Shown: positions 2,127 to 62,100, counted from the stretch's first letter. The stretch: 64,000 nucleotides of DNA from an uncultured bacterium (GCA_902783835.1 CACZSN010000013.1:1-64000); one strand, 5' to 3'. Translations and numbers: made by a program. The notes: generated by a model from the letters alone, not told the origin.

Positions 2127-3728
2127 ATGGAAAAGGTACCCCTCGGGTTTGTTGCAAATATTTTCAAAAGGCGGTCGCCCGATGAAATTATTGCACGCTC
2201 AAAATCCGACTCACTTGCAAAAACTTTGAACTGGACAGACATTCTTATTTTGGGAATTAGTGCTGTCATTGGTTCGGGCATATTTGTTATGGTCGGAGAG
2301 GCTGCTTGCGGAAATGCAGAGCATGTCGGAGCAGGGCCTGCACTCGTATTTTCGGTGTTTTTGGGTGCTTTAGCGTGCGTATTTCCTGCATTTTGTTTTG
2401 CGGAATTCGCATCGACGATTCCTGATTCGGGCTGTTCTTATACCTATACATATTCAACGTTGGGAGAATTTCCTGCTTGGATAATGGGAACGGTATTGGT
2501 TTTGGAATATGCAATCAGCAACGTTACGGTGTCGGCAGCGTGGTCGGGATATTTCTTCCAGTTTTTGGAAGGATTTTCACATGTTTTGCCGGATTGGCTT
2601 GTCCACCCACCGTTGTGGTTAATTCACGATTATGGGACTGCTGTTTTGAAATATCAAGCGGCCGGACTTGACCCAATCGTGCAAATACCGCATGTTTTCG
2701 GTATTCCGATAGCGTTTAACCTTCCTGCAATTTTCATTATGATTGTTATGGCAATTATTTTGACAAGAGGAACGCTTGAATCAAAAAGGACGGCAACTTT
2801 GATGGTTATAATCAAAATGCTCGTCATCTTTTTGTTTATCGGGGTTGGAATGTTTTATGTTCAACCTGATAATTGGGGTCATAACTTTGCGGAATTTGCT
2901 CCGAACGGGTTTGAGGGCATTACAATCGGTGCGTTTATTATTGTTTACGCATATTTAGGTTTTGATGCACTTGGGACTACGGCCGGTGAGTCGAAAAATC
3001 CGCAAAAAGACTTGCCGATAGGGATTATCGGTACACTTTTGATTGCGGCATTGGTTTATGCGGGCGTTGCGGCGGTATTTACTGGAATTGTTCCTGTCTC
3101 TGACTATGCAACGGTCAATATTCATGCACCTTTAGCCTATGTTTCAAGATTAATTCATCAAGATTGGATTGCAGGTTGGATTTCGCTTGGTGCTTTGGCT
3201 GGATTAACTTCGGTGCTTTTGGTCTTGCAGTACGCAAATTCGAGAATTTTGTATGCAATGGCAAAAGATAATTTCTTGCCGAAAATTTTGAAAAAACGTC
3301 ACCCGAAATACAAAACGCCTGCTGTCATTATTTGGCTTTCGGCGATTGTCATAATCGTTTCGGGCATGTTTATTGATATGAGCGTCGCAACTCAACTTGC
3401 GATTTGTGGAACATTGACTTGTTTTGTGTTGGTTTGTTTGGAAATCATTATTTTGAGAAAGACACACCCGCACATTAACAGACCGTTCAGAGTTCCTTTT
3501 TATCCGTTATTTCCGATTTTGGGAATTATTGTCAGTGCGTTGTTGATGATTCAGTCTTTGCCACAACTTGAGAAGGCTTCGTTTCTTTTCCCGTTGTGGT
3601 TGCTTGGCGGAGCGTTGATTTATACTGTTTACGGATACAGACAACACAGAAATGCAGAAGAAAAAGATAAGATGTTAAAGCAAAGATTTATGGAAAAAAC
3701 ACAAGGGGAAGAAAATGGCGGACAGTAA
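2127..3728 (+). CDS. APC-superfamily amino acid permease, paralogue 1 of 3
   Basis: A 533-residue integral membrane protein with about 12-14 hydrophobic segments, of the amino acid-polyamine-organocation superfamily, YfnA/cationic amino acid transporter-like group. The TM1 substrate-site motif reads GSGIF at residues 49-53, followed by GAGPALVFSVFLGAL, and the ESKNPQKDLPIG loop typical of this group lies near residue 290. It starts two bases after glyQ, with a Shine-Dalgarno AAAGG inside the last glyQ codons, and its end overlaps the next paralogue by 14 bases, so glyQ and all three transporters look like one transcript. The substrate cannot be read from sequence; an amino acid is expected. 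It differs from the next two copies by GEA in place of GPA after TM1 and by a shorter N-terminus. Confidence 0.88.
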   Translation: MEKVPLGFVANIFKRRSPDEIIARSKSDSLAKTLNWTDILILGISAVIGSGIFVMVGEAACGNAEHVGAGPALVFSVFLGALACVFPAFCFAEFASTIPDSGCSYTYTYSTLGEFPAWIMGTVLVLEYAISNVTVSAAWSGYFFQFLEGFSHVLPDWLVHPPLWLIHDYGTAVLKYQAAGLDPIVQIPHVFGIPIAFNLPAIFIMIVMAIILTRGTLESKRTATLMVIIKMLVIFLFIGVGMFYVQPDNWGHNFAEFAPNGFEGITIGAFIIVYAYLGFDALGTTAGESKNPQKDLPIGIIGTLLIAALVYAGVAAVFTGIVPVSDYATVNIHAPLAYVSRLIHQDWIAGWISLGALAGLTSVLLVLQYANSRILYAMAKDNFLPKILKKRHPKYKTPAVIIWLSAIVIIVSGMFIDMSVATQLAICGTLTCFVLVCLEIIILRKTHPHINRPFRVPFYPLFPILGIIVSALLMIQSLPQLEKASFLFPLWLLGGALIYTVYGYRQHRNAEEKDKMLKQRFMEKTQGEENGGQ

Positions 3729-5313
3729 GATTAAGACATTTTTTTCCAATATATGCAAAACCGTAAAGACCGAGGAATTGGTTGCGAAGGCTCAGAGCAA
3801 TACGTTCAACAAGACGCTTAGTGCGTTTGACCTTATTGTTCTTGGGATTGGGGCAATTATTGGTTGCGGAATTTTCGTAATGATAGGACCTGCAGTTTGC
3901 GGAAGTCATGGAAACATTGGAGCAGGGCCTTCGGTTGTGTTATCGATTTTGCTTGCAGCATCGGTTTGTATCTGTCCTGCACTTTGTTATGCGGAATTTG
4001 CCTCAATGATACCTGTTTCGGGAAGTGCCTACACATACACTTATGCAACAATGGGTGAGTTTGCGGCATGGATAATGGGTTGGATTTTGATGCTTGAGTA
4101 TGCAATCGGGGATATCACGATTGCGGTTAGTTGGACAGAGTATTTGCTCCAATTCTTGCAAGGATTTGACAAATATCTTCCGACTTGGCTTACAAACCCG
4201 CCAATGTGGCTTATCAACGATATTCCGAGTGCATTGGCAAAATGTAAGGAATTAAATCTTGACCCTCATACACAACTTCCTTATATTTTCGGTATGCCTT
4301 TCAGTATGAACCTTCCGGCGGTATTTATCGTATTTGTTTTGGGTTTAATTTTGTTGAAAGGTATGAAAGAATCGACCAAAGCGACTGCACTTATGGTTGT
4401 TATTAAACTTGCCGTAATTTTCATATTTGTTGCGGTTGGTATGTGCTTTGTAAATCCTGCAAATTGGGGTATTTCTTTGAGCGGAATCGATATGAAAACG
4501 GTTGCCCCCGGGGGATTTGACAGCATTGTTTTGAGTGCATTTATTATTTTCTATGCTTATATAGGTTTTGATACGATTTCGACAGCGGCAGAGGAAACAA
4601 AAAATCCTCAAAAGAACTTGCCTATCGGACTTTTAGGTTCTTTGATTGTTTGTTCGATTTTGTATGGATTGGTTGCAATCGTATTTACGGGCATTATTCC
4701 CGTTTCGCAATATGGGGAGGTGGATATTCTTGCACCGATTGCACATGCGGTAAGATTAATTAATCAACCGTGGATTGCAACTTGGATTTCGTTAGGTGCT
4801 TTGGCAGGCTTGACGTCTGCTTTATTGGTTTTCCAATATGGAAATACGAGAATTTTGTATGCGATGACGAGAGATAATTTCTTGCCGAAATCGTTGCAAA
4901 AAATTCACCCTGTTCACAAGACACCTCACGTCACGACTTGGATAACGACGATTGTTGTTATGTTAGGTTGTATTTTTATGGACGCACACGTTGCAGCAGA
5001 ACTTTGTATTTTCGGAACGTTGGCTTGCTTCATTATGGTAAGCGTCGGAGTTTTGATTATGAGAAGGACAAATCCGAATTTGCAAAGACCTTTTAGAGTG
5101 CCTTTCTGCCCGTGGTTGCCGTTAATCGGAATAGGATTTTGCACATACTTAATTGTAAGAGCGATTCCGCAACTTGCGACATCTGCGATGCTTTTCCCTG
5201 CTTGGTTGTTACTCGGTGTGGGAATTTATTTGGCATACGGTTACAGAATGAACCGAAAGGCAGAGGCTGAAGGAACTGCACAAACAATTTTGAGAAATGA
5301 AGATGATGATTAA
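3715..5313 (+). CDS. APC-superfamily amino acid permease, paralogue 2 of 3
   Basis: A 532-residue transporter closely similar to its two neighbours. The TM1 motif is GCGIF at residues 50-54, so the residue that is Ser in copy 1 and Ala in copy 3 is Cys here. The GPAVCGSHGNIGAGPS stretch follows, and the EETKNPQKNLPIG loop is intact. ATG start with AAGGGGAAG just upstream, inside the end of copy 1 (14-base overlap). It overlaps copy 3 by 17 bases. Copies 2 and 3 share long identical stretches, such as the region around the YLLQFLQGFDKYLPTW segment, and are the more recent duplicates. Role: amino acid uptake or exchange across the cytoplasmic membrane. Confidence 0.88.
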   Translation: MADSKIKTFFSNICKTVKTEELVAKAQSNTFNKTLSAFDLIVLGIGAIIGCGIFVMIGPAVCGSHGNIGAGPSVVLSILLAASVCICPALCYAEFASMIPVSGSAYTYTYATMGEFAAWIMGWILMLEYAIGDITIAVSWTEYLLQFLQGFDKYLPTWLTNPPMWLINDIPSALAKCKELNLDPHTQLPYIFGMPFSMNLPAVFIVFVLGLILLKGMKESTKATALMVVIKLAVIFIFVAVGMCFVNPANWGISLSGIDMKTVAPGGFDSIVLSAFIIFYAYIGFDTISTAAEETKNPQKNLPIGLLGSLIVCSILYGLVAIVFTGIIPVSQYGEVDILAPIAHAVRLINQPWIATWISLGALAGLTSALLVFQYGNTRILYAMTRDNFLPKSLQKIHPVHKTPHVTTWITTIVVMLGCIFMDAHVAAELCIFGTLACFIMVSVGVLIMRRTNPNLQRPFRVPFCPWLPLIGIGFCTYLIVRAIPQLATSAMLFPAWLLLGVGIYLAYGYRMNRKAEAEGTAQTILRNEDDD

Positions 5314-6916
5314 ATCAATACATGAAATACTGAAAAATATGGGTAAAACCGCAAATATGGACGAGTTAATCGCTCGTTCGCAAAGTCACGGCTTGAAAAA
5401 GACGTTGAGTGCGTTTGACCTTATTGTTTTAGGCATAAGTGCAATTATCGGTGCGGGAATTTTCGTAATGATTGGACCTGCAATTTGCGGAAGTCACGGA
5501 CAAATAGGGGCAGGCCCGTCGGTTGTAATTTCAATCATATTGGCGGCTTTGGTTTGCGTTTGTCCTGCACTTTGTTATGCCGAATTTGCATCAATGATTC
5601 CTGTTGCGGGAAGTGCCTATACGTATACATACGCAACAATGGGTGAGTTTGCGGCTTGGATAATGGGTTGGATTTTAGTCTTTGCCTATGCAATCGGAAA
5701 CATCACAACAGCAGTCAGCTGGACGGAATATTTGCTTCAATTCTTACAAGGGTTTGACAAATATCTTCCGACTTGGGTTACAAATCCTCCCGTTTGGCTT
5801 GTAAATGATGCAGTCAGTGCAATCGACAAGTGCAATAAAACCGGAATTGACCCTAATCAAGCGATACCGCACGTTTTTGGAATTCCGATAAGCGTGAACG
5901 TTCCGGCATTGTTAATTGTTTTGGTTTTGGGCTTTATTCTTTACAGAGGAATGAAGGAATCGGCTAAAACAGCAGCGTTGATGGTAGTTATCAAACTTTT
6001 GGTAATTTTAATGTTCGTAGCTGTCGGTATGTGCTATGTAAAACCTGAACATTGGGGATTGGCACAAGCTGCGACCGGCGATTGGTCAACTTTTGCCCCT
6101 GCGGGATTTGGCGGAATTATTTTGAGTACGTTCATTATTTTTTATGCCTATATCGGTTTTGATGCAATTTCGACTGCGGCAGAAGAAACCAAAAATCCGC
6201 AAAAAAACTTGCCGATAGGGATTGTCGGTTCGCTTGTAATTTGTTCGATTTTGTACGGTTTGATTGCGATTGTGTTTACGGGTATTATTCCTGTTGAACA
6301 TTACGGTCAAATCGAATCGTTAGCACCGATTGCACATGCGGTAAGATTAATCCACCAAGATTGGATTGCCGGTTGGATTTCAATCGGTTCATTGGCTGGT
6401 TTAACTTCGGTACTTTTGGTGTTCCAATACGGCACGACGAGAGTTTTGTATGCGATGACGAGAGATAATTTCTTCCCGAAATCGTTGCAAAAAATTCACC
6501 CCGTTTATAAAACTCCGTACAAGATTATTTGGTGGACGACGATTTTGGTAATGTTAGGCTGTATCTTTATTGATGCACACGTTGCCGCAGAACTCTGTAT
6601 TTTCGGTACATTTGGTTCGTTCATCATTGTTTGCCTCGGAATTATAATTTTGAGAAAAACAGAACCCGACAGAGAAAGAGCATTCAAAGTTCCATTCTGT
6701 CCGTGGTTACCGATTTTCGGAATTTTGTTCTGCATTTATCTGATTATCGAAGCGGCAAAAACTCTTACAACTTCGGCAACTTTATTCCCGTTGTGGATTG
6801 TTGCGGGTATTTTGATTTATGCATTCTTCGGATACAGACAAAACAGACGCGTTGAACGAGGCGAACTCGTCGTCGAAGAAGACGAGGCAGGCAAAGAAAT
6901 AACGGATACGTTCTAA
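5297..6916 (+). CDS. APC-superfamily amino acid permease, paralogue 3 of 3
   Basis: A 539-residue transporter, the last of the tandem set. The TM1 motif is GAGIF at residues 52-56. About 12-14 membrane segments, conserved EETKNPQKNLPIG loop, and a charged acidic C-terminal tail (VVEEDEAGKE) not seen in the other copies. Three in-frame ATG codons (5297, 5303, 5306) compete for the start; all lie inside the end of copy 2, so translation is probably coupled. The stop codon sits inside the loop of a hairpin that looks like the operon terminator. Confidence 0.88.
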   Translation: MKMMIKSIHEILKNMGKTANMDELIARSQSHGLKKTLSAFDLIVLGISAIIGAGIFVMIGPAICGSHGQIGAGPSVVISIILAALVCVCPALCYAEFASMIPVAGSAYTYTYATMGEFAAWIMGWILVFAYAIGNITTAVSWTEYLLQFLQGFDKYLPTWVTNPPVWLVNDAVSAIDKCNKTGIDPNQAIPHVFGIPISVNVPALLIVLVLGFILYRGMKESAKTAALMVVIKLLVILMFVAVGMCYVKPEHWGLAQAATGDWSTFAPAGFGGIILSTFIIFYAYIGFDAISTAAEETKNPQKNLPIGIVGSLVICSILYGLIAIVFTGIIPVEHYGQIESLAPIAHAVRLIHQDWIAGWISIGSLAGLTSVLLVFQYGTTRVLYAMTRDNFFPKSLQKIHPVYKTPYKIIWWTTILVMLGCIFIDAHVAAELCIFGTFGSFIIVCLGIIILRKTEPDRERAFKVPFCPWLPIFGILFCIYLIIEAAKTLTTSATLFPLWIVAGILIYAFFGYRQNRRVERGELVVEEDEAGKEITDTF

Positions 6917-7513: not shown

Positions 7514-8839
7514 ATGGCTGATAAAAAAATAAATGGCAATAATGACGATATTTATGAGTATATTAGGGTTGTAGATGATAAGGTTACACAAAACGAAAAG
7601 ACCTTGAAATTCATTACTGCACAGCAATCCGAACAAATGAAAGAACTTATAGGTTCAAAAACCGAAAATCTCAGAAGATTTTTTGAAGAAGCTATCAGAA
7701 TGCAAACCGAAATAGTCAGAAATGCTTATGAAGAGATAATTACGGAACTTAAAAATACTTATGAAAATGATTTGAAAAACAGGGAAGTTGAAAATATTAA
7801 ACTTCTCAATCAAAAAGAAGAAATGCTCAAATCAGTTTATGATGCACAAGTGAAAGCATTGAAAGAATCTTTTGAAAGCGATTGCCAAAAAAGAATCAAT
7901 GAATGCTATATCAAAACAAAAAGCGAGAGCGAAGAAGAAAAAATAGAACTTATAACAAAATATAAACAAGAAATTCAAGCTACTGCCGATAAGGTTTATC
8001 AGGATGCAAAAAAAGAATTTTCTTCGGAATTGCAAGCTACGGCGGATAAAGTTTATTTTGATTCCAAAGCAGAGTTCGAAAAAACTCTTGAGTCTGAAAA
8101 ACAGGCTGTTTACGATGCGGCAAAAGCTGAATTTGAAGCTAAATTACAAGCCACAGCAGAAGAATATGAAGACAGAATTGAAGAAATTAAGGCTTGGAAT
8201 GCAAAAAATCTTCAGACAAAAATAGCAGAAACGGAAGATTTCTTTAAAAAAGCTGAACAACAAATTGCCGATGAAGCTTATGCGAATGGAAAAGCAGATA
8301 CGGAAGCTTGGCACGATGATGTTGTGAGACAAAAACTTGAAATACAGGCTCAGTATTTCCAAGAAGAACTTCAAAATCAGGAACAACGCTTGAAATCAGA
8401 AATTTCACAAACGGTTTCCGATGAAGTTTATCAAAATACAAAAAAAGAATATGAAGACAGAATTGCGGAAATAAATGCTTGGCACGCAAAAAATCTTGCT
8501 GAAAAACTCGAAGAAATGAAAAATTATTATGAGGGCAAAATTCAGCAAAATTGGTCTGAACACGAAGATATCGTAAGACAAAAACTTGAAGTTCAGGCTC
8601 AATATTTCCAAGAAGAAATTGAACACGCAAAAGAAGAAACAAAAGCGGAAATGATGTCTCAAATGGATGAGGCTGCAAGAAGAAATGAAGAAGAATTAAA
8701 ATTGTTCCTCGATTTTTATGAAGCAAAAATTAAGCCGTTCAAAAAACTTATAAACATCCACGAAACAACGGATAAACGCATAAAAGATATTCAACAAAGA
8801 TTGCAAAACAGATTTAATAAAACTTTCGGTAATAAATAG
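7514..8839 (+). CDS. Long coiled-coil protein heading a glycosyltransferase operon
   Basis: A 441-residue, highly charged protein with no signal peptide and no membrane segment. From about residue 35 to the end it is nearly continuous heptad-rich helix dominated by Glu, Lys, Ala and Gln. It contains internal repeats: ATADKVY occurs twice (about residues 156-180), and the pair EYEDRI..I.AW.AKNL and DIVRQKLE.QAQYFQEE each occur twice further on. No enzyme motif is visible. SD GGGAGA lies just before the ATG. It precedes the first family 2 glycosyltransferase by 26 bases. The same YE(S/D)RIAE-type coil element occurs at the C-terminus of the second glycosyltransferase, and long coils fill the middle of the third. 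I infer a scaffold that organises these enzymes. It could also be a cytoskeletal or filament-forming protein. Confidence 0.75.
   Translation: MADKKINGNNDDIYEYIRVVDDKVTQNEKTLKFITAQQSEQMKELIGSKTENLRRFFEEAIRMQTEIVRNAYEEIITELKNTYENDLKNREVENIKLLNQKEEMLKSVYDAQVKALKESFESDCQKRINECYIKTKSESEEEKIELITKYKQEIQATADKVYQDAKKEFSSELQATADKVYFDSKAEFEKTLESEKQAVYDAAKAEFEAKLQATAEEYEDRIEEIKAWNAKNLQTKIAETEDFFKKAEQQIADEAYANGKADTEAWHDDVVRQKLEIQAQYFQEELQNQEQRLKSEISQTVSDEVYQNTKKEYEDRIAEINAWHAKNLAEKLEEMKNYYEGKIQQNWSEHEDIVRQKLEVQAQYFQEEIEHAKEETKAEMMSQMDEAARRNEEELKLFLDFYEAKIKPFKKLINIHETTDKRIKDIQQRLQNRFNKTFGNK
8161..8619 (+). repeat. Internal tandem repeat in the coiled-coil gene
   Basis: The block that starts GAATATGAAGACAGAATTG at 8161 recurs at about 8447. 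The block encoding RQKLE(I/V)QAQYFQEE at about 8325-8370 recurs at about 8575-8619, with mostly silent or conservative changes. The gap between the two blocks differs between copies (about 157 against 119 bases), so there was an insertion or deletion after duplication. Confidence 0.6.
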
Positions 8840-8865
8840 CTTAAAAGCTTTACGGGAAAAGAAAA

Positions 8866-10086
8866 ATGACAAATTCTGATATCAAAGTTTCGGTAATCGT
8901 ACCAATTTATAACGTAAAAAAATATCTTGCAAAATGTTTGGACAGCATAATTGCCCAAACGTTGAAAGATATAGAAATTATTTGTGTTAACGACGGTTCA
9001 ACGGACGGTTCCGATAAAGTACTTGCCGAATATGCAAAAAAAGATTCAAGAATAAAAATTGTTAACCGGAAAAACGGCGGTTTGTCCGCGGCAAGAAATA
9101 CGGGCATGCCTTATGCAAAGGGTAAATATATCGGATTTGTGGATTCAGATGATTATATTGAACCTACAATGTATGAGTTAATGTATTATAATGCCGAGCA
9201 TTTCAACTCACAAATGGTGATATGTGCGGTGCATAAGCTTGACGATTCAACAAATACCGTATTTGATGATGATCCGTATTATACATTGGGTTACTTTCCG
9301 AAAGAACTTGATAACAGAGCGTTTTCGCATTATGACACAAAAGATTTCTTTCAGGATTTTTGTGTAATGGCTTGGAATAAACTTTATCTCAGAAGTTTTT
9401 TGGAAGAAAAACAGGCAAGATTTCCTGACGGATATGTTTTTGAAGACGGACCGTTCTTTACGGATATTTACTTCGATATGGACAGAGTAACCATAGTTCG
9501 AGATTTCTTGTATTATTATCGTGTGAACAGAGCCAACTCAATCGTTGCAAAAGGAGATAAAAACTTTACCGATATTTTCTTCGTTGTGAATAAAATGCTT
9601 AATAATTTGCGAAAAACAAGCTATTTTGACGAAGTTAAAGCATATTTTTTGAGAAAAAAATTTAAGGATATGCGTTATCGTTATCAGGTTATCCAAAACA
9701 GATACAAAAAATATTATTATGACAGATGGCGGAAGTTTTGGCTTGATATTGACCACGACACACTTGAGGATGAAAAATTTAAAGAAAAATACCCTTATAC
9801 GTACAGAAATATAAGATTGGTAAGGGAAAACGATTATTGGCATTACCAAAAAGAATTTTTCATAGAAAAATGTAAACATAAAATTATGGAAATTTTGTAC
9901 ATGAATCCGAAAGTTTATACTTTTAAAATCGGAAAATTTCATGTTTGCATAAAAAAACGCCCGAAAATCTTTGATTGGTGGTACGAAACAAACAAAATGG
10001 TAATAGCTGTATATTGGCTAAAGTTAAAATTTGAGTTTCCGTTTATGTATACGGAACTTGAAGATTGGGAAGATTCGGTTAAATGA
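8866..10086 (+). CDS. Family 2 glycosyltransferase
   Basis: A 406-residue GT-A fold glycosyltransferase (GT2, PF00535). The catalytic domain occupies residues 6 to about 110: VSVIVPIYN at 8-16, the NDGS nucleotide-binding motif at 42-45, GGLSAARN at 71-78, and the DXD motif Asp93-Ser-Asp95 within FVDSDD. The C-terminal half (YRVNRANS region and beyond) is rich in aromatic and basic residues and resembles the accessory domain of polysaccharide and teichoic-acid-type glycosyltransferases; it has no membrane span. A weak SD (GGGAAAAG) precedes ATG 8866. It overlaps the next glycosyltransferase by four bases (ATGA), so translation is coupled. It probably adds a sugar to a surface glycan or protein; donor and acceptor are unknown. 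Confidence 0.88.
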   Translation: MTNSDIKVSVIVPIYNVKKYLAKCLDSIIAQTLKDIEIICVNDGSTDGSDKVLAEYAKKDSRIKIVNRKNGGLSAARNTGMPYAKGKYIGFVDSDDYIEPTMYELMYYNAEHFNSQMVICAVHKLDDSTNTVFDDDPYYTLGYFPKELDNRAFSHYDTKDFFQDFCVMAWNKLYLRSFLEEKQARFPDGYVFEDGPFFTDIYFDMDRVTIVRDFLYYYRVNRANSIVAKGDKNFTDIFFVVNKMLNNLRKTSYFDEVKAYFLRKKFKDMRYRYQVIQNRYKKYYYDRWRKFWLDIDHDTLEDEKFKEKYPYTYRNIRLVRENDYWHYQKEFFIEKCKHKIMEILYMNPKVYTFKIGKFHVCIKKRPKIFDWWYETNKMVIAVYWLKLKFEFPFMYTELEDWEDSVK

Positions 10087-11339
10087 AGCAACCTGCCGTA
10101 AAATCTAAAAAGTCAAAGACAAAAACGGAAAAAACTGTTGCTAAAAATACAGAGATTTCAAACAAACCCGAAAAAGAAATAAAAGTTTCCGTAATAATGT
10201 CGCTTTATAATGTCGAACTTTATATGCGAGTTGCGATAGAAAGTGTGCTGAAACAAACACTTTCGGATATAGAATTGATTTGTATAAATGACGGTTCATC
10301 CGATTATTCTCTCCAAACGGCACAAGAATATGCCGAAAAAGATGACAGAGTGAAGATTATAACTTATGAAGAAAGTAAAGGTCAGGCTTTTGCTCGAAAT
10401 CGGGGAATAGACATCGCAAGGGGTAAATATATCGGATTTGTGGACGGTGACGATTGGGTTGAACCTACAATGTTTGAAAAATTGTACGAAAATGCCGAAA
10501 AAAATAATACCGATGTCACTTGCTGTGCCGCAATTCTTTATAATGAATTGATGCAAGAATGCGATTTCAAAAATGCGTACTATAACATGAGTTTAATGCC
10601 GCCTGATTTAGACAACCGTGTATTTAGTCATGAAGATACAAAAAGTCTCTTGACGGGCTGTATAAACGTCGCTCTGTGGAATAAAATCTATCGTCTTGAT
10701 TTTATGAATGAAAATAAAATCAGATTTCCTGAATATTTTATCTATGAAGATATGCCGTTCTTTTATGAAGTATGGTTCAAAGCCAAGAGAATTACGTTAA
10801 TTCGCGATTTTTGTTATTATTACAGAATAAACAGAAACGGTTCAACAATGTCAAAAGTCGGAAATAAAGTCCTCGACAGACCGGAGATGATGGCATTAGC
10901 GTATGAAATGTTTAAAAAACTTCCGTATTTTGCAGAGATTAAAACGCAGACGGCTGCTTGGGTTATCGACGATTTGTTCCACAGATTTACGCTTGTTGAG
11001 GCAAGATATCGGAAGGAATTTTTCTTCTTGATGAAAAAACTTTTCAAAAATCTTGATTTAGATGGTGTTGATATGGAAAAACTCTCGAAATGCTACTGTT
11101 ACAAGGAATATTGTAATTGTATCGAGATGAAGTACGATGATTTCACGAGAACTTTGTGTGATACTTATGTTCGGGCAAAAAAGGCCGAAAATGAGCTTCG
11201 CAGTGAAAAAATGAATATTAAATATCAAACGCAAACTTTCTATGAAGGATTAATTGAAAAAATTAAGAATGAATATGAGAGCAGAATTGCGGAATTATAT
11301 GAAAAAATTGGCGGATTAGGAGGAAATAATGACGAATAA
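10083..11339 (+). CDS. Family 2 glycosyltransferase with C-terminal coiled coil
   Basis: A 418-residue GT2 enzyme with a Lys/Thr-rich N-terminal extension of about 30 residues. The catalytic domain runs from about residue 32: VSVIMSLYN at 35-43, NDGSSD at 69-74, GQAFARNRG at 100-108, and the DXD motif Asp121-Gly-Asp123. The last 60 residues are a charged helix (KAENELRSEK ... NEYESRIAELYEKIG) that ends in a Gly/Asn tail. The YESRIAEL element resembles the repeats of the coiled-coil protein at 7514. It overlaps the previous gene by four bases and the next by eleven. Family 2 membership is clear; substrate is not. Confidence 0.88.
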   Translation: MKQPAVKSKKSKTKTEKTVAKNTEISNKPEKEIKVSVIMSLYNVELYMRVAIESVLKQTLSDIELICINDGSSDYSLQTAQEYAEKDDRVKIITYEESKGQAFARNRGIDIARGKYIGFVDGDDWVEPTMFEKLYENAEKNNTDVTCCAAILYNELMQECDFKNAYYNMSLMPPDLDNRVFSHEDTKSLLTGCINVALWNKIYRLDFMNENKIRFPEYFIYEDMPFFYEVWFKAKRITLIRDFCYYYRINRNGSTMSKVGNKVLDRPEMMALAYEMFKKLPYFAEIKTQTAAWVIDDLFHRFTLVEARYRKEFFFLMKKLFKNLDLDGVDMEKLSKCYCYKEYCNCIEMKYDDFTRTLCDTYVRAKKAENELRSEKMNIKYQTQTFYEGLIEKIKNEYESRIAELYEKIGGLGGNNDE

Positions 11340-13983
11340 AAAAACTCCTAAAGTTTCAATAATTGTACCTGTTTACAATGCCGATTTGTATTTGGAAAAA
11401 TGTTTGAATTCTCTTGTTAATCAGACTTTGCAAGATATTGAAATTATTTGCGTTAATGATAATTCCAAAGATAAATCACTCAAAATTTTACAAAAATTTG
11501 CGAAAAATGATAACCGTATAAAAATTATTAATTTTAAGGAAACAAACGGTCAATCTAAGGCGAGAAATATTGCGATTGAGAGTGTTTCAGGTGAATATAT
11601 CGGGTTTGTTGATGCCGACGATTTTGTCGACATTGATATGTTTGAAAAAATGTATAAAAAGGCTCAAAAGTCCGATATGGTAATGTGTCAGACAAAAGTT
11701 TTTGATGAAAAAGTTCAATCTTATAAAGATGATGCTTATTTTGCTCTTGATTGTTTTGATGATAAATTTACCGAAAAGCCTTTTAATCACGAGGATACAA
11801 AAGATTTTATAACTGAAATTAACGTTTCTGTTTGGAATAAAATTTATCGTACGGAATTTTTGAAAAAATGCGGTGTTAAATTCCAAGAAGGCTTTATTTA
11901 TGAAGATTTGCCGTATTTTTATGAAGTTTATACCTTGGCAAAAAAAGTTGTTTTGCTGAAAGAATTTTTATACACATATCGGATAAATAATAAAAATTCA
12001 ACGATGACGAGAACGGATAAGAATGTGAAAGACAGAGTTGATATGGCTTCGCAAACTTATGATGTGTTGAAAAAACAGAAATATTTTTCCGAAATTAAGT
12101 CAAATGTTGTCAATGCAATAATTCACGATTTGTTTTATCGATACTTGATAATAGATTCCCGTTATCAAAAAGAATATTTTTTCAGAATGCAAAAATTCTT
12201 CAAAATGATTGATACGACTGATATTGATGACACTTTGATTAAGAGCGTGTATTATCCTTATTTTTGCGAAATTAAAAAACGTTCTTATGATGAAACAATA
12301 AAATATTTTTCTAATCAGGAAACGCTTGGTTCCGCGTATGTTGAGCATGCAAAATTGATATTTAAAAGAGATTTTGAAAAATTAAATGCTCAAAAACAAG
12401 AATTTTTGGAAACAAAAGATTTTCAATTGGCTGAAATTGAACGTCAACGTTTGATTTGCGAAAAAGAAAAATCAGAAAATGAAAAAAATAAAAATGATTT
12501 AACAATATCAAAACAAAACCTTGATAACAGTTGGGCGGATTTTGAAAAAATAAAAGCGGAAAAACTTGCGGAATTGGATAAATTACAAGAAAGAATTTTG
12601 CAGGATGAAAAGATTCGTTGGAAAAAATACGAACTTAAAGTTGCTGATTTAGAACATCAGAAAGAAGAATTTAAAAAAGAAAAAGATTTTAAAGATTCCG
12701 AAATCGCTCATCAATGGGAAGATTTCGAAAAGGAAAGAGAGTTGCAGCTTTGTGAACTTGACAGAAAGCATAAGCTTGAAAAATTGACGGTTGAAAAAAC
12801 GAAAAACTATCTTACAAACAGATATCTTGAAGATGTTGAAAGTGAGAAATCCAAACTTGCGAGTGATTTTGCGGAAGAATTGGAAAAGCAGCAAGCGTAT
12901 TATTCTGATTTGCTGGAAAAGCAGTTAAAAATGCAAGAAGAAAATTATAAAAAAACGGATATTTTCAAAAAAAAAATGAAGGAAGAAACAATGCAAAGAC
13001 CTAAAGTTTCAATAATTTTACCGGTATATAATGTTGCACCGTATTTGAGACAGTCATTGGACAGTATAATCGGACAAACGCTTAAAGATATTGAAATTAT
13101 TTGTGTTGATGACGGTTCGACGGATGAAAGCGGCAAAATTCTTGATGAATACAAGGAGAAAGATTCAAGAATTAAGGTAATTCACAAGAAAAATGCCGGT
13201 ACGGGGGCCGCAAGAAATGACGGTTTGAAAATTGCAACTGGTGAATGTATAGGCTTTGTTGATCCCGATGATTGGATTTTGCCCAATATGTATGAACGAC
13301 TTTATAATATCTTGCAGGAAAAAGAGCTTGATATTGTTATGTTTACACCGGATGTATTTAATGACCAAACCCAAAAACACGAAGGATTTTTGTATTTTCA
13401 AGATTCAAATTTTCCGAAATTTTTGGATGATAAAATTTTCAATAAAGACGATATTTCTCCATTTTCATATCCTATGTGCGTATGGAATAAACTTTATCGT
13501 AAAAAACTTTTTGATGATAATAATATTGATTTTGCCGAAGGATTGGATTTTGAAGATCACAAAGTTATTTTTAAATCTTTATTTACGGCAAAAAGAATTT
13601 ATTTTATCCGTGAAAAATTATATGTTTACAGACATTCAAGACAAGGTTCGATATTGTCCGACAATGATACAAGAATGTTTGACCACATAAAAATTTACGA
13701 TATTGTTGAAAACATCCTTAAAGAAACGGGCAATTGGGAAAAATTCCACCTCGATTTTTTGAGATATAAAGTACATAATATTCTTTATTATTACACTATG
13801 ATTAAACCGCAATATAAGGATGAATACTATAAAAAAATGGTAAAATCTTTGCAATCTACCAAAATGAGCCAAGATGAACTTTCCGTTTTGGAAAAAGATT
13901 ATCCTGATTTGAAGCCAATAATGGAAGATACGTTGTCTCACAAAATTAAACGTGCGGTGAATAAAATAATTAAACGTAAGTAA
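11329..13983 (+). CDS. Double-domain family 2 glycosyltransferase with central coiled coil
   Basis: An 884-residue protein with two complete GT2 catalytic domains. Domain 1 starts near residue 8 (VSIIVPVYN at 9-17, DXD motif Asp95-Ala-Asp97). Residues about 345-553 form a charged coiled coil of Glu/Lys-rich heptads. Domain 2 begins right after it (VSIILPVYN near 560, DDGSTDESG, DXD motif Asp645-Pro-Asp647). The junction carries a run of ten A residues at 12967-12976, followed by AAGGAAG and an in-frame ATG at 12991, so the second domain could also be made as a separate protein, or the gene may be an old fusion. SD AGGAGG precedes ATG 11329. The stop abuts the stop of the convergent GNAT gene. 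Bifunctional two-domain GT2 proteins are known in capsule and glycosaminoglycan polymerases; this inter-domain coil is not usual. Confidence 0.88.
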   Translation: MTNKKTPKVSIIVPVYNADLYLEKCLNSLVNQTLQDIEIICVNDNSKDKSLKILQKFAKNDNRIKIINFKETNGQSKARNIAIESVSGEYIGFVDADDFVDIDMFEKMYKKAQKSDMVMCQTKVFDEKVQSYKDDAYFALDCFDDKFTEKPFNHEDTKDFITEINVSVWNKIYRTEFLKKCGVKFQEGFIYEDLPYFYEVYTLAKKVVLLKEFLYTYRINNKNSTMTRTDKNVKDRVDMASQTYDVLKKQKYFSEIKSNVVNAIIHDLFYRYLIIDSRYQKEYFFRMQKFFKMIDTTDIDDTLIKSVYYPYFCEIKKRSYDETIKYFSNQETLGSAYVEHAKLIFKRDFEKLNAQKQEFLETKDFQLAEIERQRLICEKEKSENEKNKNDLTISKQNLDNSWADFEKIKAEKLAELDKLQERILQDEKIRWKKYELKVADLEHQKEEFKKEKDFKDSEIAHQWEDFEKERELQLCELDRKHKLEKLTVEKTKNYLTNRYLEDVESEKSKLASDFAEELEKQQAYYSDLLEKQLKMQEENYKKTDIFKKKMKEETMQRPKVSIILPVYNVAPYLRQSLDSIIGQTLKDIEIICVDDGSTDESGKILDEYKEKDSRIKVIHKKNAGTGAARNDGLKIATGECIGFVDPDDWILPNMYERLYNILQEKELDIVMFTPDVFNDQTQKHEGFLYFQDSNFPKFLDDKIFNKDDISPFSYPMCVWNKLYRKKLFDDNNIDFAEGLDFEDHKVIFKSLFTAKRIYFIREKLYVYRHSRQGSILSDNDTRMFDHIKIYDIVENILKETGNWEKFHLDFLRYKVHNILYYYTMIKPQYKDEYYKKMVKSLQSTKMSQDELSVLEKDYPDLKPIMEDTLSHKIKRAVNKIIKRK

Positions 13984-53183: not shown

Positions 53184-56100
53184 ATGAATTTTAAGAAGAT
53201 TTTGGGTTCTTTTTTGTCGGCGATGACATTATTTACGACATCACCTGTGTCCGTAATGGCTTATGACATAACAGATGAATCGTCATTAAAAGAATTTTTG
53301 ACAAATAAGGACATTAATGAAACCGGTAACCTTAACGATAATATTTCCACGACATCAGAAATTGAAGCAAAATCGGCGGAAATAAAATTATACGCATCCG
53401 GCAACAAAATTTTAACGGGTGAATTGTTGAGATTCACGGGCGGGTCTTTGATATTGGATACGTCTAACAACACCAGTACTCTTTCAATATTAAATGACAT
53501 TCGTTTATCAAGTGGTGTTATTTTAAGAAACAATTCTACGGGTAATTATAATTTCGGAAGAATTTTGGGTTCAGGCACAATTGATTTTGCTGACAAATCG
53601 ACTTTTACCGCTTCTGAAATTAACGCTTCTTCTCTTTCTTTGAGAAGCGGCAGTACTCTTTCCATGTACGAAGATGCAGCAACAGGTGCAGACGGTTCGA
53701 TTTATATAAACGGCACACTTACGTTAAATGGTATGAATAGTGGCGGAAACAGAACGACACTTGAGGCAAACAAGATTGAAGCAACCAATATTGATATGGA
53801 CACGACTTCAACGATTAATGCCTCAGACATCAAAGCAGCATCGACAATTTCGGTAAAAAATAACTCAACAGTTAACGCATCTAACATTGTTGACGGAAAA
53901 AATACGGCGAAAGTAACGGCTGACAAGTTATCTGTTACTGGTCATTCTGATTTATATGCTGATACAATTGAAGCTAATTCCGTTGAGGTTTTGGATTATT
54001 CAAATATTGACTTAGTTGGTGATACGGGAAGAGGTCTTTCGGAAAACGGACTTTTGTCTGTCAACGGTAAGTTGACAATCAACGGAAACTCAACAGTCAA
54101 GGCAAATTCTATCGAAGCTGATATAATTGACAGTTCCGGTACAATTACTATTGGTAATGATCAATCTGTTTCAACAATCAAAGCTGATACAATTAATATT
54201 ACAAAAGGTGATTATACAAACACAGTTATAAGCGGCAAAACGGATGATTATTCAACAATAACTTTTGCTTCAGGCGGTAATGTTAATTTCAGAGGCGATT
54301 TAAACAAATTACAAATTAAAGGCGGTTCAACCTCTTCAAATGCAACAGTCATTGTTAATGATAACAGTGGTTTGACTATTGAAACCGGTCCGACAAATTC
54401 AACAACTAAGGAAGTTACTTTTAATAATACTGAATTCCAACTTGGTGAAAATGCATCATTGAATTTGAATGCAAAAAATACAGATATTGTATTTGCGAAT
54501 GATGCAACTACAGTTGCAAACATTGAAACTGTTGAATCTTCAAAAATTAACATTAAATCAGGCGGAAAGAATAAAGTTGTTCTTGATAATATAAATTTGG
54601 CTTCGGGTCAAAACAACGGTACGCTTACAATTTCCGGAAATGCACAAATCAAAGCGGGTGTACAAGATACATCAGGTGATTTTATCAGCGGACAGGTTTA
54701 TGTTGACAAATTAATGCAAGAATTGGGTTCTTCTTTGACAATGGAGCAAAAATCCACATTGAATGCAAATACTGTAAGCATAACAGGTTCTGACCTTGTA
54801 CTTAAAGATATTTCAAACAGTGGCAGTGATACTCTTAAAGACGGTATCAAAGTTAAAGATACCTTTGATGTTGCAAATTCAAATATCTATGTTTCAGGCA
54901 AATCGAAAATCACATCTGGCGGAAACTTAAATGTAAGTAATACTCATGTTTCTGTTGCAGGCGGTGGTGTTTTAGAATTAGGTTCCGATGCAAACATCAA
55001 CCTTGACAAAGATTCAAATATCGAAACAGACGGAGAATTGAAGATTTCAGGGGATAATGCTTCGTCCGTACACAACCTTTACAGTTCGGTAGCAGGTACC
55101 GGTACTTTAAGAAAAGTCGGTTCAAGCACATTAAACATCGGTGACAAAAATAACAAAAGAACGGTTAAATTAGATTCATTAATTATCGGTGCAAACAACG
55201 ACAGTCAAAAACAAGATTTTGTCGGCGGTACCGTAAATATTAATGAAAATGTTTTTGTTAAAACGACAAAAGTTGTCGGTGATACAAAAGTAAATATTGC
55301 CGACAAGGTAATAGGTATCGTTGATACAAAAAGTTCAGATTTTAGTTCATCATCAATTAGATTTATGAACAACAATTCTTTCAATTCCGCTGCGGATTCA
55401 AAGAGCCAAACCGTTTTGACAATGGGAGAAGGTGCTTTACTCAGTGCCAATACAATTGAATTGAGTGTTTTAGATGCTTATTTGAGTGGTGGTACTATTG
55501 GTACGGATGAAACAACAAAAGTTATTTTTGGTGATAAATCATCAATCTATGTTCAAGATAACCCCGTAACGGTTAAAGTTAAGAATGCAAATAACGGTGG
55601 TTTTGTATCAAACGGTGCAAAAATTTATCTTAAAAACGGTGGTAATATTAATTTCGATAACAAAGCTATCGGTTCGGCTGCTCACTGGAAAATTTCAAAC
55701 GGCAGTACTCAAGAATTTGCCGCAGGCAGCTGGTTTGACGGAATTGTCGGTGAAAACGCAATTGAAGAAGGCGGTATTTTCTACAATGACGGCGGCAACA
55801 TACATATTGGCGATAGTACAATAATCGGTTATTACGAAGGTGAAAAAATCCCTCTTACCGTTACAGATCCTATTAAATATACGGATACAATTACGGGAAA
55901 AGGAAACCTTGTACTTCTTAAAGGTGGTGGGGTTTACAACACGGGATATTTCGGTTCAACAATTACCGGAGGTATTTCTTCACTTGTTTCCTTTATTAAT
56001 AACGCAGCAAACGGACAGATTGAAATTTCTCCAGGTGTATTTGAACTTGTAGGTAAAGGCGGTGCGATTTATAACGCTGCGGACTTAGCTACCGGAACCC

Positions 56101-59100
56101 ACGGTGAAGTTTCACTTGGTGCTCGTACTACGTTTAAACAAAACGGCGCAGGTCTCCAAGGCGGTGCAATCTATAACGAAGCCTCAAATTCACAAAGAGG
56201 CGGAATTGCCGAAGTTAAAAATGCTATTTCTCTCGGTCAGGAAACTTTGTTTGATTTGAACAGAGCAAGATATCAAGGTGGTGCAATTTATACAACAAAC
56301 CTTGACCCGACAAAAGAAAGCGTTATTTCTATCGGCAAAAAATCATCATTTGATAACAGTGATGTAGGTTTCAACATTAATGCAACTGCTCCCACGACTA
56401 CAACACCTGATGAACAATATTTTTACGAAGCAGAAGGCGGTGCACTTTACGTTGATGAAAATGCAACGGTTAATATCGGAGAACATTCAGGTTTCTTTGG
56501 AAACTTCTCAACGTATTCAGGTTCCGCTATTTCAAACCGCGGTACCATAATTTTCAATGATGACGGTCAAGACAATGATGAAGCTTTGAGAAACGGTCAA
56601 GTCGTTCAAGGCTCAATTAAATTTGCAGGCGGTGGTGAACATGAAGATTTAGGTGATGCATCGAACACATTCTATACACACCAAGGTGGTGCAATTTACA
56701 ATTACGGCGGTAAATTCCTTACTAATTTGAGTGACGGTACTCAAAAAAGCGGATTGTATAAAGCTGAATTTGAAAACAACAAGGCATTATTCGGTGGTGC
56801 GATTTATCACTATTCACTCGATACAGCAAACCATGGCGAAAGTGACTTGTTAGCAATTGAAAATTCAACTTTCACAGGTAACCAAGCTGCTAAAGGTATT
56901 GATATTTACAAAAACCCGAAAGATTCAAGTTCACAAGATCACTGGCAAGAAAAAAGCTCCGGCGGTGCAATTTATAACGCAGGCAGAAATACATATTACA
57001 GCATTAGTTATGATCCTGTTCGCGGCTATTATCCGGAAGAACTAACGGATTATAATGCGGGAAGCCAAATGAAGATTACATCTTCGGAATTTTATGATAA
57101 CACTGCGGTAGACAAAGGTGGTGCTATATATAACGACATTATGTCTGCAATCGAAATGTCGGATTTGGACTTCACTTCTAACTCTGCATCAAAAGGTGGT
57201 GCAATTTATAACGCAGGCTCTGACGGAACTCATAGCGGAGCAACCATCACAACGAAACTTGGTGCAAACAATGAAAAAATCGTTTTAGAAAATAACACAG
57301 CAAAAAGACAATTAGATAAAAAAGGAAAGAAACAAACATCTCCTGACGATGAATACTTAGGCGGTGCATTATATAATGCGGGTACAATCAAACAAAGCGG
57401 TTCAACTTCTGCATATGATAATGAAATCATCGGCTTTGAATTTAAAGGAAACGTTGCCGGTGACGGTGTAGGTACCGATGCAACAAAAGATACAATCGGA
57501 CGAGGCGGTGCTTTCTATAACGCATCAAGCGGCACAACTTATGTAGGTAATTCAACATTTGATACCAACAGTACGATTGCATACTCTCAAAAAGAAGAAA
57601 ATGCAAAGTCTGAAGGTGGTGCTATATATAATGAACAAGGTACATTAATCATTGGTGATGATACAAAATTCATCAATAACGGTCGAGAAAAAGATAATTA
57701 TGAATCTGTAACAACCCGTCGTGGCGGTGCGATTTATAACAATACAAACGCAACGACAGAAATCAATTCAACAAAATCATCTTTCCAAGGCAACGCTGCA
57801 TTAAGCGAAGGCGGTGCAATTTACAACGCAAAAGACGGTAATTTATCTATCAAGAGCGGTGTATCAATCGGTGTTAAAGAAGAAAATGCAAACCAAGCTC
57901 AAATGGGTGGCGGTGTATTCAATGCCGGCAATATGACATTGGAAGACAATGTTGCATTTGTAAACAACACAGCGGCAAAAGGTGGCGGTTTGTACCTTAA
58001 AGAAGGTTCAACCGTAAATGCTGATGCTGCCGGATTAAATCATTTGTCAAACGTTACATTTGACAGTAACGATGCTGATTACGGTGCAGGTTTATATGTT
58101 GATAAGAATGTAGATATTGCTCTTGACAATGTAACATTCAAAGGAAACAGCACATCAGGAATAGGTTCTGCATTCTATAATGCGGGCAATATGACGCTTG
58201 GTGCAAATAACAAATTCTCTGATAACAAGGGAAGTTTAATCGGCAACTCAGGTACATTAACATTTAAAGAAGGATTCAAACTTGACGGTTTGGATGCGGA
58301 AAATCAAGGTAATACTTCTTTCATAACAAATGAAAAAGACGGTGTTGTAAATATCACAACGGTAAACGGAAAATCACTGACAATCAGCAGTGTCGGTGAC
58401 GGCAGTGCGGATGGTGCGGCTATTTCATTGAAGGATAATTCCACAATCAATACCGATTCCGTTGCGAATACATTAAAGAATGCTATATTTACTAAAAACA
58501 AAGGTAATAATGGCGGTGCTATATTCAAATCATCAACAGTTGATTTGACAATCGATGATACGGTATTTGACGGAAACATCGCACAAAACGGTGGTGCAAT
58601 ATATAATGATAAAGGCACATTGACAATCGGCAAAAATACCGTATTTTCAAATAACAATTCAGCACAAGAAGGCGGTGCAATATTTAACGCAGCAAACGGA
58701 ACATTGGAATTTGATGCTGATTACACCGGTTTCTCAAGCGGAAACGGCAAAAATTATTCTGTCGGAAACGGCGGAGCTGTTGCTAACTATGGAAAAATGA
58801 ATATCAAATACTCAACGGAAGATTCTAACAGTATTGATTTTTCATACCAAGGTAAAGACTCATCCTCAGGAAACGGCGGAGCATTATATTTAGGTAATAA
58901 CTCACTCGTTACAACGAACGGAGTATCTAAAAAGGATGCAAATAATAACGTATTGAGTTACATCAAAAACGGATTATTTAAAAATAATACAGCACAAAAC
59001 GGCGGTGCATTATTCAACGAATCCAATATTGTAATTGAAGATACTAACTTTACGGGAAACGTAAGCGGTTCTGCAGGTGGTGCAATATACAACAAAGGAA

Positions 59101-62100
59101 CCGTTGTTGACGGAAAAGTTAAATATGGCAATTTGGAATTGATTTTGTCAGAAGACAAAACTCTTTCCGATAATAAATCCGAAGACACAGCCGGAGCTGT
59201 ATTTAACGAAAACGGTGTAGTAACAATTACCGCAAAAGACGGACACAATGCCGTAATCAGCAACAACTATGCTTATAACAGCGGTGGAGCACTTGTTTCT
59301 GAAGGAGAAGACGGAGTTCTTAATATTAACGGAAACGTAATATTTAAAGACAACGGAACAATTGACAGCAACGGAGTAGGCGGAGCAATCCGTATTTCAG
59401 CCGGAACGTTGAATTTTGATACGACAAACGGCGACATTGTATTTGAAGGAAATAAAGCTTCTGCCGGAAGTGCAATATTTGCAAGTGACAATGCAACTAT
59501 TAACTTCAAAGGTGATGACAACCACGGAATTACATTCACAAAAGATCAAACAATTGCTTCAGATGGAACATTGAATAAAATCAAAGTTTCGGGAAGTAAT
59601 ATCAAGTTTGAAAGTGACATGAGTAACTTCAACGGTCAATATAAACAAGACGGCGGTACCGTAACAGTTTCAAATAACTTTATGAGTTTACAGGGTAAAG
59701 ATAATGAAATTTCAGGCGGTACATTTATCTTGGCAGACGGTGCAAAATTAGCTCCGACTAATGATAATGAAGGCAATAATCTTTATGTAAACGGCAAATA
59801 TACGGACAAACCGACAATCAGATTTGAAAAGAATAATTCATCAACTTTAACTGATTTGTCAGCACTTTATAAAGATAAAAATGCAGTTTCAAATTCAGGA
59901 TCATCTTTCACCTATACATCGGATTTGGGAGATGCAAAAATAACTTTCACGAACGCAAAAGTTGATTTAGCATTCAAACAAGGCTTTGTAGATGTTGTTG
60001 ATGAAGGAACAGGCAAAACATACAGAAAAAATTCAGGTATTTATGATCTTGTATTAGACGGTGGTTCAGATGTTGCTGCGGATAAAAAGACGCTCAGCAT
60101 AGGAAGTGATATCAGCCGTTCATATGCAATCGGTGATTTGACTTTAGGTGATGCCGTTAAAATTGATACAAATATAAAAATTGATAGAGACGGTACACTT
60201 TCATTGGAAGGTTCCGGATTATCAGAAAACGTTAAAACTATTGAAATTGCAAAAGACGGCAGACTTAATATCTTTAATGACACTTATGAAACAATAGGTG
60301 CAGACGGTATTACAACAAAATATAATACCGATTTGACATTTACGGGTGAACTCAAAGGAAACGGTACAGTTTTCAAAGGTTATAAAAATTCACCGACTGA
60401 AGACGGATTGGCAGGTCGTGCACAATTGACGTTTGTGAGCGGTTCAACTGCAGAAAACTTCATCGGTAAATATATCCAAAATGCGGGAACGTTGAAATTT
60501 GAACAAGATTCAACATACTTCAACAAATCAGCAGACGTTATATATAAAGGTGATTCAACATTAATCTTGGAAGATGGTGTAAATTACACAGGTAATACAA
60601 CGATTAAATTTGATGAAGAAGCAGGTGGCAGATTTGTTTTAGGTACTGCTACCGATATTAACATGACAAGACCTGATGAAAGCATCAGATTTGAAGGCAC
60701 AAGAAAAGACGGTACAAAAGTAACCAATACGGTAGAACTCGGTAAAGATACAACAATTCAATTTACGCACGGTAAAACGGATGTTGATGCATCTGATGAT
60801 ACTATCAGCATTGGTAAAGATAATGCATTTTCGGGTGTTATTATCGGCGGCGATGAAGATAACGGTTCAGGTCCCATCAGCATTAAAGTAAGTACTGTTG
60901 GCATAGAAGGCAAAGACACTACATTTAACGTTGAAGAAAACGGTAAGTTAGGTTTTGGCGATGTCAAATTTGTAGATACGGCAGGAACTGACGTAACAGG
61001 TATTTATTCTCCGACAGTTACACTTGATAAAAATTCAGAATTTTATCTTGTAAGCGGAAGAGATAATGATTTTAGCAATTTAAATCTTTCGACGAAAGCA
61101 GCGAATTGGTCTCAAACGGCAGGAAGTCTTATTAAGGAAAACTCAAGTAAAACGACATTGACCGGAGATAAGACAGATCTTTCCGGATTCCACGGAACGA
61201 TTGTAATCAAGAACGGTGAAATTGCAGTAGATGATACGATTGCAAATGACAAGAGATTTGCGGAAGATACTCACTTTGATGTATCGAAGTTAGATAGCGG
61301 AGCAATCGCAGTCGTTAAGAATATCACATCAGGTAATGATATGACATTTATTAACGGAATCGGAAACGAGATCACAAGTTCATCAACTGGTGAAGAAAAC
61401 TTTGCTTTATCAATAAAAAATGATAAAGGCGGAATTAACTTTGTAAAAGCGGACGGTACGGAAGACATTCCTGATATTAATGTGAAGAACGGTTCAAAAC
61501 TTTCCGTTGTTGCAAAAGGAGACATTTCAGCAGTAAATGATGTAAATGTTATAAGTAAGTTCTCTCCGTCAGGAATTGCACAAAAATCAGAAGCATTGAT
61601 TAAATCCGACGAAGGAAAAGTAACAACAGGTGCAATCAGTGTTATCGGTGCAACAGACGGTTCGACCATTGTTGAATCCGTATTGGGTATCGGTGCAAAA
61701 GGAGATATTAGCACAAGCAATAAAAATGTAACCGTAAAATACGGTGACTTAAAGATAGTTTCTGATGAAGGTTCAATCACATTGGGCGATTCAACAGATA
61801 CGACAAACCCCGCATTGAAGGTTGAAAAAGGTGCTGCATCCGTAAATGCAGGTGGAAGCTTGAATATTAACGGCAGAGTCGAAATGTCGGAACTTACCGA
61901 TAATATATTATTGGGCGGTTCATCATTGACAACCGGCGGAATTTTAATTGAAAATTCAGTTGGCAAAACAGCTATAATTCAAGCAACCGGAGGTAAAGCA
62001 AACATTTCCGGCGATGTTGATATTGCAAATATTGACAGAGTTCAAATTTCTGCAACAGAAGGTATCAATATTAAAGCAGAAGGTACGGATAAAGGTAATG

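Follow-up and report, generated by a model that had tools for sequence, protein, structure and literature searches.

The four-gene operon at positions 7514 to 13983 of the window, which is the whole 64,000-nucleotide stretch of DNA from an uncultured bacterium analysed here, appears on balance to encode one glycan-assembly machine, in which helical rods co-localise and space enzymes of the GT2 glycosyltransferase family. A multi-enzyme complex is the preferred reading because the rod gene is conserved together with the glycosyltransferase genes, because relatives carry a homologue of the rod joined to a GT2-family domain, and because the fusions vary among sister genera. Physical association of the rod with the enzymes is suggested by gene fusion and co-conservation.

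Organization of the operon

The operon is formed by four plus-strand ORFs (Table 1), which encode a free helical rod protein and three enzymes, called here GT1, GT2 and GT3 (the family is always written GT2 family). The genes are separated by a 26-bp gap and then share overlaps of 4 bp and 11 bp, exactly the layout described in the initial annotation, and the coil of about 200 residues that it had placed between two GT2-family domains of the fourth gene is indeed found there, at residues ~335-552. Genes 2 to 4 match the GT2-family model (PF00535) above the curated cut-off, and gene 4 has two such domains, GT3a and GT3b, which brings the total to four. DxD-type and downstream ED motifs, read from the translations, are present in all of them (VDSDD/EDGPFF, VDGDD/YEDMPFF, VDADD/YEDLPYF and VDPDD/FEDHKVIF). 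Directly upstream lie three tandem, close-packed plus-strand ORFs of 532-539 aa (2127-6916), which resemble paralogous amino-acid permeases, the third being confirmed by Pfam.

Table 1. Features of the rod and glycosyltransferase operon in the window
Feature	Position	Strand	Remarks
Free helical rod ("coil") protein, 441 aa, without catalytic domain	7514..8839	+	period ~3.76 residues/turn
Rod, conserved N-terminal region, residues 1-125	7514..7888	+	conserved in 5/5 genus genomes
Rod, variable middle with degenerate internal duplications	7986..8623	+	33-, 88- and 63-nt families, 67-86% identity between copies
Rod, conserved C-terminal region, residues 351-441, basic end	8564..8839	+	
Rod motif YEAKIKPFKKLI	8717..8752	+	counterpart YE.QLKPFKKLI in the g41 coil fused to a GT2-family domain
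GT1, coil-free GT2-family glycosyltransferase, 406 aa	8866..10086	+	
GT2, GT2-family glycosyltransferase with C-terminal helical tail, 418 aa	10083..11339	+	
Helical tail of GT2, includes YESRIAE	11163..11336	+	resembles the free rod beyond shuffles in the window genome
GT3, whole protein, 884 aa	11329..13983	+	
GT3a, N-terminal GT2-family domain of GT3	11329..12318	+	
GT3 coil, 217 aa in the window, 558 aa in G018	12334..12984	+	period 3.60; 18-aa (54-nt) repeats in G018
GT3b, C-terminal GT2-family domain of GT3	12982..13953	+	orthologue of the g41/g13 helix-GT2 gene
Basic C-terminal helix of GT3, HKIKRAVNKIIKRK	13933..13980	+	possible membrane anchor

Conservation of the gene order in the genus

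A protein search detected the rod gene in every one of the five genomes of g1, the genus of the window, and in none of the other 141 of the 146 family genomes searched. The initial annotation had made its proposal depend on co-conservation, and this is what the genus displays: the three glycosyltransferase genes follow the rod gene in each of the four genomes where the contig continues, all of these relatives being draft, fragmented assemblies, several of them less than 90% complete. A search of related genomes for the order rod, GT1, GT2, GT3 recovers it, with short gaps or overlaps, in G018, G054 and G106 as in the window, while the G081 contig ends within the rod gene. In G106 the GT3 gene leaves one contig inside the coil and the coil-GT2 half leaves another, and these fragments probably represent one gene split by assembly. 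GT1 proteins are 87-93% identical within the genus. A scan of GTDB contigs for the rod returned one relative, L001 (OMSS01000008.1), which is the same locus as that of G018. The amino-acid-permease flank of the window is also present in G018, and the flanks differ in G054, G106 and G081. Genes resembling those of FeoA/FeoB ferrous-iron transporters, recognised by eye, adjoin the operon in G081 (L043, 3361-5745) and G018 (L001, 15507-16748).

Differently fused clusters in related genera

Outside the genus, full-length relatives of GT1 are found only in g13 and g41 (42-49% identity) among the family and class genomes searched. The clusters of these genera encode GT8-coil proteins, GT2-coil proteins of up to 1073 aa, coil-free GT1-type proteins, E proteins (GT2-coil, ~490-510 aa) and F proteins (coil-GT2, ~500-540 aa), as well as short GT2-coil proteins in g41, and no free rod gene was recognised in them. 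A maximum-likelihood tree of 70 glycosyltransferase domains resolves three groups, which are the coil-free GT1 group (support 100/98), a GT-coil clade (100/98) and a coil-GT clade (100/100). GT2 and GT3a of the window fall into the GT-coil clade, as do E, a g13 gene and the long GT2-coil proteins, and GT3b falls into the coil-GT clade beside F and a g13 gene, so that GT3 of g1 corresponds to two neighbouring g41 genes, GT2-helix and helix-GT2, related by fusion or by splitting.

A small HTH-like gene upstream of the cluster is common to the g41, G106 and G054 loci, and the locus is therefore probably orthologous and would have moved in the lineage of the window and G018. This gene is divergent from the first cluster gene (L041, 5317-5661; L048, 363-677; L042, 3156-3587) and possibly encodes a regulator. 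In g41 the cluster lies upstream of genes for a protein of ~180 aa, which has no Pfam match, and for FtsZ (L056, 15330-16487; equivalents in L048, L049, L058, L059 and L060).

Relationships among the helical regions

The claim that the operon proteins share coil elements stands for one pair and falls for another. In the window, the tail of GT2, which contains YESRIAE, aligns with the free rod with a score of 68, against 36±5.6 for shuffled tails and 42±6.1 for shuffles preserving the class pattern, and none of 500 shuffles of either type reaches it. This strength is confined to the window, and the match fades in the relatives, where the fraction of class-preserving shuffles that reach the score is 0.02 in G018, 0.12 in G054 and 0.51 in G106; by profile-profile comparison it is marginal (26 vs 21). 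The GT3 coil resembles the free rod no better than shuffles do in pairwise alignment (88 vs 86±11), and a single element common to all four proteins was rejected on this ground.

The clearest relationship is found between genera. The free rod of g1 matches the N-terminal coil of the g41 enzyme F with a probability of 96% and a score of 66 in profile-profile comparison, with a rod alignment of five sequences, whereas scores do not exceed 25 for reversed sequences, which keep composition and periodicity, and 21.4 for column shuffles. The segments YE..(I/L)KP(F/Y)KKLI and WH..NL are common to both. The E and F coils of g41 are also homologous to each other (42 vs controls of at most 22.5), and none of the remaining coil pairs is clearly above its own controls by this method. 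For the GT8-coil protein, which takes the first place in the g41 cluster as the free rod does in g1, homology to the free rod is not supported (score 13.8 against controls of 19-20). The free rod of g1 thus has its homologue in g41 joined to a GT2-family domain, which is a Rosetta-stone argument that helices and enzymes act jointly.

Periodicity of the helices

The 441-residue protein had been annotated as a coiled coil, and long helices are predicted for it, but its period is 3.76 residues per turn (near 15/4) and not the heptad value of 3.5. On a simple hydrophobicity code, the periodicity of the free coil family reaches 12.6, against a 95th-percentile shuffle maximum of 3.7. Peaks lie at 3.76, 3.60, 3.69, 3.77, 3.65 and 3.69 in the six coil groups, and in none of them does the power at 3.5 reach that of the peak, so a canonical heptad coiled coil was rejected. 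Non-heptad periods of this kind predict straight or right-handed helical bundles. The GT3 coil has a period of 3.60 and is built of 18-residue repeats, which show in G018 as multiples of 54 nt, and the difference between this period and that of the rod makes hetero-coiling between them doubtful. Among the long GT2-coil and GT8-coil proteins of g41 and g13 are examples with repeats of 44, 33 and 48 residues. A literature search for hendecad coils together with glycosyltransferases returned no match.

Predicted structures and closest solved enzymes

AlphaFold models, which are of monomers, predict that the rod is helical over nearly its whole length, with three long helices (residues 9-135, 141-257 and 262-438), at modest confidence (mean pLDDT 69), and no homologue of it is found in the PDB at E<=0.01. 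In GT3, the sole enzyme modelled, the predicted helices span residues 335-386 and 388-551 and separate two GT-A domains, whose fold is backed by Foldseek matches to GT-A enzymes. The C-terminal ends are basic (net charge +4 in the rod, +5 in GT3 and up to +9 in g41), and these helices may hold parts of the system at the membrane.

The closest solved GT2-family domains are those of GalT1 (5hea), 3bcv and K4 chondroitin polymerase; the matches are generic for the family and leave the sugar and the acceptor unsettled. GalT1/CgT of Streptococcus parasanguinis (5hea) is the best PDB sequence match of both GT1 and GT3, but its solved chain has 296 residues, of which only the GT2-family part is matched, and it contains no counterpart of the rod. 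The K4 chondroitin polymerase KfoC (2z86), the top Foldseek match of GT3, likewise has two GT-A domains of the GT2 family per chain. The GT3 domains, however, are parted by a rod of 217-558 aa, and the whole chains share 12-13% identity, with a TM-score of 0.24 by query length.

Comparison with known systems and export

The annotation had assigned the operon to a surface polymer, an assignment that we find unsupported. GT2-family domains are the only domains found by Pfam in the operon proteins, which lack a terminator domain; no transporter, Wzx or Wzy gene is present in the operon, and Wzt_C is found in none of 10 genomes, several of which are incomplete. An ABC transporter-dependent O-antigen polymerase-terminator of the WbdD/WbbB type was rejected, as Pfam finds no terminator domain in the operon proteins and the 10 genomes yield no Wzt_C. 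All six genomes tested encode O-antigen ligase/Wzy-like and flippase-like proteins away from the operon, and five of them also encode Poly_export proteins, so export is possible, yet without a link to the operon.

In the heparosan capsule system of E. coli K5, KfiB is needed for the membrane localisation of KfiC, and KfiA, KfiB and KfiC form a membrane complex (PMC4366286). A non-glycosyltransferase partner is encoded together with glycosyltransferases there as in the window; here, in contrast, the rod has a homologue among the glycosyltransferase-fused coils of relatives, and four glycosyltransferase domains are present. In Klebsiella and E. coli O-antigen systems, coil proteins act as rulers and glycosyltransferase modules are flexibly distributed (PMC11231755). 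WbdD/WbdA, WbbB and the Klebsiella O4/O7 systems resemble the window operon in having coils over single- or multi-module enzymes, variable fusion and a coil spacer (PMC11231755), and differ from it in the terminator and Wzt_C, and in that the helices described here are non-heptad with other repeat lengths.

Rod length and alternative functions

Across the genus, the two ends of the free rod are conserved and its middle varies. The coil of GT3 measures 217 aa in the window and 558 aa in G018, while the flanking domains are 85% (GT3a) and 93% (GT3b) identical between the two, and in g41 the GT2-coil proteins range from 477 to 1073 aa and the GT8-coil proteins from 414 to 827 aa. Changes of this kind are typical of repeat expansion and contraction, and both a ruler function and neutral drift are compatible with them. 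If the helices were mainly molecular rulers or spacers, they would set distances between catalytic sites or to the membrane and thus fix glycan length or branching, as in WbdD/WbbB, and a rod lengthened or shortened by repeat turnover would alter product size. The sharp length shifts beside conserved enzymes, the 54-nt (18-aa) units of the GT3 coil, the length ranges in g41 and the coils that set chain length in WbdD-type systems (PMC11231755) point in this direction. We hold this reading to be unlikely, as neither a kinase, a methyltransferase nor a Kdo transferase is found as a terminator in the operon, no Wzt_C is found in the 10 genomes, and the length drift could be neutral.

Cytoplasmic protein glycosylation is slightly less likely still. 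The enzymes would sequentially build a glycan on a pilin, adhesin or flagellin, with the rods organising the relay. GalT1 and its partners act sequentially on streptococcal Fap1, and the match of GT1 and GT3 to this enzyme and the lack of an exporter gene in the operon would suit such a role, as would a giant adhesin-like ORF with repeats, at least 3605 aa long, in the same window; against it, the GT2-family matches are generic, the operon contains neither an acceptor nor a GtfA/B-like enzyme, and a membrane-linked glycan would be just as compatible with the basic helices and with the match to K4 chondroitin polymerase. The giant ORF (53184-63998, plus strand) leaves the window, has a signal-peptide-like start and repeated GGAIYN motifs, and looks by eye like a beta-helix adhesin or polymorphic outer-membrane-like protein, a conceivable target of glycosylation. 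Finally, the 441-aa protein could be an amphipathic-helix protein with a structural or lipid-surface role of its own that merely lies in the same operon, a reading for which its period near 11/3-15/4 and a Pfam apolipoprotein match below the cut-off (E 1.4e-4) could be invoked but which is very improbable in view of its strict co-linearity in all complete genus loci and its homology to the g41 coil fused to a GT2-family domain.

Proposed assembly

The glycan-assembly machine that we favour would work with GT1, GT2, GT3a and GT3b adding sugars sequentially, in an order that we infer. The non-heptad alpha-helical rods (the free 441-aa protein, the tail of GT2 and the internal helix of GT3) would be the assembly and spacing elements that co-localise these enzymes, and the short basic helices would probably attach the assembly to the cytoplasmic side of the membrane. 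The rod would act as a separate protein (in trans) in g1 and as part of an enzyme (in cis) in g41, with enzymes fused or separate.

The earlier idea of the coil protein as a scaffold thus survives in part: the protein is co-conserved and co-linear with the glycosyltransferases, and its profile matches a coil fused to one of them, but the coils are not one common element. The lack of sequence similarity between the GT3 coil and the rod and the fact that no free rod gene was recognised in the g41 and g13 clusters count against it.

Significance

The known glycosyltransferase complexes held together by coils come from a small number of proteobacterial capsule and O-antigen systems, and the favoured reading, if true, would extend this principle to gut relatives of cyanobacteria. 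It is possible, though we propose it only tentatively, that Gastranaerophilales-like bacteria own a modular assembly line in which right-handed or straight rods, with repeats of 15, 18, 33, 44 and 48 residues, are swapped between enzymes in cis or in trans, and in which in-frame gain and loss of repeats retunes rod length, hence glycan length or pattern, quickly in evolution. The same enzymes occur with a rod that is either part of the chain or a separate protein, and rod lengths differ two- to threefold. These natural experiments make the scaffold and ruler roles directly comparable.
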